Source: a virus
IMG/VR virus record: IMGVR_UViG_3300037297_000066
Span: 248,001-312,000 of that record
Reading direction: 5' to 3' (one strand)
Length of the DNA: 64,000 nt
The notes under the pieces are model-generated. The model made no database searches. It saw only the letters and a program-made list of their open reading frames with translations, and was not told the DNA's origin. The stretch's first letter is position 1. Each line of letters starts with the position of its first letter. Made by a program: the position numbers and the translations under genes. Below, piece by piece: positions 32,976 through 33,065 of the stretch.

Positions 32976-33065
32976 GGGCCGGCAATGCGGACTTCAAGGT
33001 TCGCCACGACTCACAGTGCCCTTATGGGCCCGGGTCGTGTCGTCTAAGTTGGAAGACACCGGCCC
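32976..33065 (+). tRNA. candidate tRNA permuted at the anticodon loop
   Basis: Outer helix GGGCCGG (32976-32982) / CCGGCCC (33059-33065). Inside, in order: a T-arm-like hairpin GCGGA/TTCGC with TTCAAGG in its loop; CACGACTC; a GCCC/GGGC spacer hairpin; GGGTCGTG, which pairs with CACGACTC as an acceptor stem; and a D-arm-like GTCT-AAGTTGGA-AGAC. Read as a permuted tRNA, the outer helix is the anticodon stem, so the two ends of the transcript meet at the anticodon. No anticodon can be assigned. Confidence 0.45.

Follow-up and report, generated by a model that had tools for sequence, protein, structure and literature searches.

The association of Ro60 with YrlA RNA and RtcB in bacteria, and the mimicry of tRNA by YrlA, are established (PMC7790460, PMC8394870). 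A single operon encodes Ro60 (Rsr), the YrlA RNA and RtcB in Salmonella and other bacteria (PMC7790460), and the arms of YrlA follow each other in the order of a circularly permuted tRNA (PMC8394870, PMC11472068). YrlA (RF02553; crystal structure 6CU1) consists of a stem enclosing T-, closed acceptor- and D-arm-like hairpins joined by connectors of 4, 0 and 2 nt, which in the Rfam layout are 4 nt before the T arm, none before the acceptor and UN before the D arm. YrlA is itself a substrate of modifying enzymes of the TruB or DusA type. Permuted tRNA genes, in which the 3' half precedes the 5' half, have been described in algae and in the archaeon T. pendens (PMC3978253). Proteins of the Ro60 type are also encoded by phages, such as the Ro60 of Thermus phage phiLo (PDB 9l5y) and the ROT/TROVE proteins carried by jumbo phages (PMC7824862).

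The sequence studied here (hereafter named the window) is a stretch of 64,000 nt taken from a 437-kb virus record of IMG/VR (positions 248001-312000). ARAGORN identified 52 tRNA genes and one tmRNA within it. A 90-nt element located in this tRNA array was compared with YrlA, with permuted tRNA genes and with a family of related RNAs found in the same array.

Fold and arm order of the 90-nt element

The element occupies positions 32976-33065 (plus strand), between the tRNA-Val(TAC) gene, which ends at 32975, and the tRNA-Asn gene, which starts at 33074. It folds as a three-armed tRNA-like RNA within a 7-bp enclosing helix, as assessed by its predicted fold, z-score, pair probabilities and a descriptor null. 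The strands of this outer helix are GGGCCGG (32976-32982), which begins right after the end of tRNA-Val, and CCGGCCC (33059-33065). A T-arm-like hairpin (GCGGAC-TTCAAG-GTTCGC, 32987-33004) comes next, with TTCAA present and an imperfect stem in which C53/T61 replace G53-C61. It is followed by an acceptor-like stem, CACGACTC/GGGTCGTG (33005-33039), which is closed by an inner hairpin and lacks NCCA; its strands (33005-33012 and 33032-33039) form eight pairs, including one T-G. The D-arm-like hairpin (GTCT AAGTTGGA AGAC, 33042-33057) contains A14, GG18-19 and A21, and its loop, together with the T loop TTCAA, is compatible with elbow contacts. The connectors between these parts are 4 nt (CAAT), 0 nt, U plus C, and one A.

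The minimum free energy of the element was -45.5 kcal/mol (z -4.26), and none of 200 shuffled sequences was equally stable. Pair probabilities of its helices were 0.75-1.0, both for the isolated 90 nt and when 120 nt of flank were included; with a flank of 60 nt, which cuts the neighbouring tRNAs, those of the outer and D helices fell to 0.3-0.4. The structure is almost certainly present as drawn. This bears out the preliminary description, where a segment between tRNA-Val and tRNA-Asn with all of these helices had been reported, and also its statement that the arms are ordered as in a tRNA cut within the anticodon loop, with which both the order and the connectors (4, 0, U+1 and 1 nt) agree.

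The arm order of the element is also that of YrlA in the Rfam layout, and its connectors match those of YrlA as far as the D arm. As in the rsr-yrlBA-rtcBA operons (PMC7790460), genes for a Ro60-like protein and for RtcB occur in the same genome. Unlike YrlA, however, the element has a perfect 7-bp outer helix in place of a long basal stem with internal loops, its T-arm sequence is degenerate (of the tRNA loop signatures, TTCAA and AAGTTGGA are present and G53-C61 is absent), and it sits inside a phage tRNA array. A covariance search with RF02553 gave no match at this locus up to an E value of 10, and the matches obtained elsewhere in the genome were below the cut-off and mostly tRNA neighbours. 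Rfam as a whole, at gathering and at permissive thresholds, gave no match at the locus either.

A strict descriptor of this architecture, composed post hoc with the sequence of the element already known, gave a single match in the window; in 77 Mb of Markov sequence it gave about 35. From related arrays, 89 spacers of 60-130 nt were compared, and 11 of them were enclosed by an outer helix and had at least three branches, about one being expected from shuffles. By inspection, the element was the only one of these 11 in which a T-like arm comes first; in most of the others the T arm, where visible, comes last, as in ordinary divergent tRNAs, or there is none.

A homologue of the sequence was sought in the rest of the genome, in five relatives and by exact scans of viral contigs, and none was found. 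In a phage DNA similarity search, the matches listed covered tRNA genes only and left the element uncovered, and exact motif scans of viral contigs with its T arm and with the flank of the neighbouring mimics (see below) gave zero matches. A 169-aa ORF in the neighbourhood had no relatives in the searches performed. Positions 7960-8070 of L022 resemble a second element of the same kind, with a different minimum free energy fold when a longer stretch is folded. A homologous-looking descriptor match in L025 was attributed to chance, and it lies within the Ro60-like ORF. The possibility of a missed tRNA gene in normal order was also considered and rejected, because the third hairpin has no T loop and the first lacks the D-loop signature.

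Probable tRNA mimics nearby and the Ro60-like and RtcB genes

Three further elements on the plus strand of the same array, at 30968-31133, 31815-31973 and 32134-32297, had been described as tRNAs permuted at the variable loop. All three exist, the variable-loop cases themselves being located at 30972-31129, 31818-31970 and 32138-32293, and their break point does differ, as had been stated, from that of the 90-nt element, which opens at the anticodon position. They belong to a covarying family with tetraloop-capped acceptors in several members, and they are very probably not tRNA genes but Y-RNA-like tRNA mimics. They carry a two-helix stem (P1-P2) on the variable loop, the first of them ending at P1. 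An outer helix and the motif CCGCCG..GAGC.TACAAGC / CCGCTC..ACTCGG are common to all three. The same design was found again in relatives, near the Ro60-like gene. A nearly identical flank motif and a linker hairpin, GGGCYTAGCCC, were also observed in the three elements. Self-cleaving ribozymes in these flanks were considered, but no Rfam ribozyme matched, and this was abandoned as the leading idea because several relatives have a tetraloop on the acceptor and there are also un-permuted versions.

A covariance model of the family (R1), comprising P1, P2 and YACAAGC...ACTCG on the variable loop, scored the three mimics at 116.3, 111.8 and 118.4 bits, respectively; the third also showed a partial match to YrlA (E 0.0015). 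In 1.36 Mb of sequence R1 gave 28 matches above 57 bits, all but three of them within the window or in Ro60-centred loci. Compensatory changes were observed in 15 of the 17 predicted pairs of the tRNA body in an alignment of 19 family members, and many of the anticodon loops in this alignment lack U33. The P1 and P2 sequences are nearly unique to each member (27 distinct P1 5' strands in 29 rows, with a few rows having a P1 of 3-5 bp placed poorly), and their pairing is kept in most. Four-base loops cap the acceptor in L031 (TCCG), L035 (GCTC), L043 (GAAT), L046 (GCAA) and L027 (TTCG), indicating that the family does not need acceptor ends. Some members, such as L022 3113-3243, look three-armed.

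Un-permuted tRNA-like RNAs with P1-P2 inserted in the variable loop and ending in GCCA were located at 39362-39504 and 39514-39649 (both plus strand). Immediately downstream, at 39650-39776 (plus strand), inspection revealed a tRNA-Arg(CCT) gene (39675-39748) in a similar collar formed by GGACATCC, ACACGC ... CACTCG and GGATGTCC, the whole region 39362-39776 being thus a tandem of two such RNAs and the collared tRNA. Because the mimics keep one fold while their backbone is opened at differing sites, they are more readily understood as binding scaffolds than as tRNAs for decoding. Paired tRNA-like elements with AAGCTNAA-type flanks were also seen at 7780-8070 of L022 and 20190-20480 of L027; some of their acceptor hairpins reach 13-19 bp, and they may form a second class of tRNA mimics.

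The ACTCG of the 3' internal loop, beside P1, resembles the AcUuG beside the basal stem in the Rfam YrlA consensus. In vertebrate Y RNAs, CACUUG adjoins the lower stem. From this likeness, ACTCG is probably the Ro60 site of the family, as predicted from sequence, and it seems rather likely that the P1-P2 stem of the three companions would bind the Ro60-like protein.

The gene for this protein (35080-37011, plus strand) lies 2 kb downstream of the element and encodes 643 aa, with a helical N-terminal part and a C-terminal vWA domain (Pfam). Relatives with 44-55% identity were found in 32 viral contigs, many of them beside tRNA arrays. The top seven Foldseek matches of its AlphaFold model (pLDDT 66.5, pTM 0.38) were Ro60/Rsr/TROVE structures aligned over 539-619 columns, with low full-length TM-scores of 0.2-0.26; the best full-length matches were 1yvr, 2i91, 1yvp and 2nvo, and the phiLo Ro60 (9l5y) ranked lower. 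The PDB sequence search was weak, and the structural aligner VIA-align returned chiefly vWA domains, so that the Ro60 assignment depends on the full-length Foldseek alignments. The Pfam TROVE profile did not match the protein, which, unlike phiLo Ro60 and the jumbo-phage ROT/TROVE proteins (PMC7824862), is too divergent for this profile. Hence, with moderate confidence, we consider it a divergent Ro60-like protein by the fold of its model. An RtcB RNA ligase is encoded at 58240-59646 (plus strand; PF01139, E 1.6e-87), and RtcB is present in 9 of 19 relative records. The region 56605-61684 contains a row of genes for a vWA protein, RtcB and a Cpn60-type chaperonin.

The 90-nt element shares with the R1 family the array, a tRNA-like body and an opening that is not at the acceptor. 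Closure of the acceptor by a short loop occurs in several members of the family, and a few members are three-armed. In contrast to the family, the element has neither the P1-P2 stem nor the ACAAGC/ACTCG motif, and it opens at the anticodon and not at the variable loop. The R1 model, run with filters off, did not match it. The element is thus outside the R1 family and outside Rfam YrlA.

Alternative readings of the element

One important question is whether the element is a circularly permuted tRNA gene. As in the genes of algae and T. pendens, its 3' half precedes its 5' half (PMC3978253), and rotation gives the order of a cloverleaf, outer (anticodon)-V-T-acceptor-D; algae are known to have permuted genes with the break at anticodon-loop position 37/38 (PMC3978253), and the window encodes RtcB, an enzyme that phages and bacteria also use routinely as an RNA-repair ligase (PMC7824862). 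Nevertheless, ARAGORN found no tRNA in 28 rotated and joined constructs (14 junctions, two 5' starts), whereas a separate rotation scan run with ARAGORN recovered all three variable-loop elements. By inspection, positions 32-33 are CC and pair with GG at 37-38 within the outer helix; there is no U33, and since this helix spans 27-33/37-43 the anticodon loop would have a C at position 33 and no more than three unpaired bases. The termini do not form a bulge-helix-bulge, as defined for permuted tRNA genes (PMC3978253), because no helix extends past the 7-bp outer helix (C32975 lies opposite T33066) and there are consequently no bulges. NCCA is absent and the linker within the acceptor folds into a hairpin, although CCA could be added post-transcriptionally; the T arm is imperfect, and the three cases that had supported this reading resemble mimics, with capped acceptor stems in several relatives. 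In comparison with the algal and T. pendens genes, then, the element has no bulge-helix-bulge, usable anticodon loop or NCCA, its T arm is imperfect, and it belongs to a bacterial virus. The term permuted tRNA used in the preliminary description thus remains valid for the topology and not for a functional tRNA gene with a re-joined anticodon, which we consider hardly credible; the order of tRNA-like arms alone does not demonstrate a permuted tRNA gene. Permuted tRNA genes in a bacterial virus, if true, would demand a splicing pathway of a kind that is not known from bacteria.

It is also very unlikely that the element is a full YrlA-type, Ro60-bound Y RNA, equal to the three neighbouring mimics: it has the arm order of YrlA and lies in the neighbourhood of the mimic family, but the basal stem with an internal loop and the ACTCG-type motif are missing, and neither R1 nor RF02553 matches it. 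The strongest competing explanation is that of a structured spacer, for example a GC-rich barrier or a processing punctuation, or of the decayed remnant of a tRNA, with a coincidental likeness of the arms. Several other spacers of the array also have stable folds (among them 33321-33418, with z about -3 to -4, and 33654-33713, with z about -3.2), the outer helix begins one base past the end of tRNA-Val, and the element has no homologue or model match, all of which would suit a spacer. Against it, the three tRNA arms are jointly right in order, spacing and key loop letters, an arrangement that the post hoc descriptor found only about 35 times in 77 Mb, and the z-score near -4 is like that of members of the mimic family. 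We regard this rival as possible but doubtful.

With slightly more belief than doubt, we favour the view that the element is a tRNA mimic in minimal, three-armed form, built like the tRNA-like module of YrlA but without a Ro60 handle. Because it has no family stem or motif, no model match and no homologue, its placement is one that we infer, from a mimic body in YrlA order, from the three-armed members of the family and from L022 7960-8070. For such a mimic we also infer transcription, excision, protein binding and function. Processing of the 3' end of tRNA-Val and of the 5' end of tRNA-Asn would probably free it from a polycistronic tRNA transcript. Its T-, acceptor- and D-like hairpins may stack to resemble a tRNA's elbow and upper half, with a loop closing the acceptor. 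The excised RNA would stay un-ligated and act through partners that bind it as they would a tRNA. In the related mimics, the additional two-helix stem probably binds the phage Ro60-like protein; the element, which has no such handle, might be a free decoy or effector module.

The evidence points, instead of to permuted genes, to a phage clade with a Ro60-like protein and a large set of tRNA mimics, on permuted and un-permuted backbones. Such a set makes it possible to test for viral Y RNAs, whose role might be to protect tRNAs against the anticodon nucleases of the host or to bring in host enzymes of RNA decay or modification. We tentatively suggest that this jumbo-phage clade deploys tRNA look-alikes in several circular permutations of a single fold, with openings in the variable-loop stem, in the acceptor or, for the element, in the anticodon. 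Most of them would be tethered by a dedicated stem to the phage Ro60-like protein and would serve as decoys or RNA-surveillance adaptors beside the RtcB repair ligase of the phage, the element being an anticodon-open, untethered member.

Other features of the array and the window

The unannotated spacers at 31464-31566, 32379-32546, 32636-32723 and 33148-33244 contain T-arm sequences, outer helices or degenerate cloverleafs. The linear ARAGORN run missed a tRNA-Trp(CCA)-like gene at 31741-31814, and two adjoining tRNA-Pyl calls with anticodon CTA at 9557-9714 are possible amber suppressors. Among the protein-coding genes of the window, a histidine kinase and a response regulator are encoded at 50756-52868 (minus strand), and ThiF/E1-like and papain-like protease genes were observed at 38670-39257 and 17459-18376.
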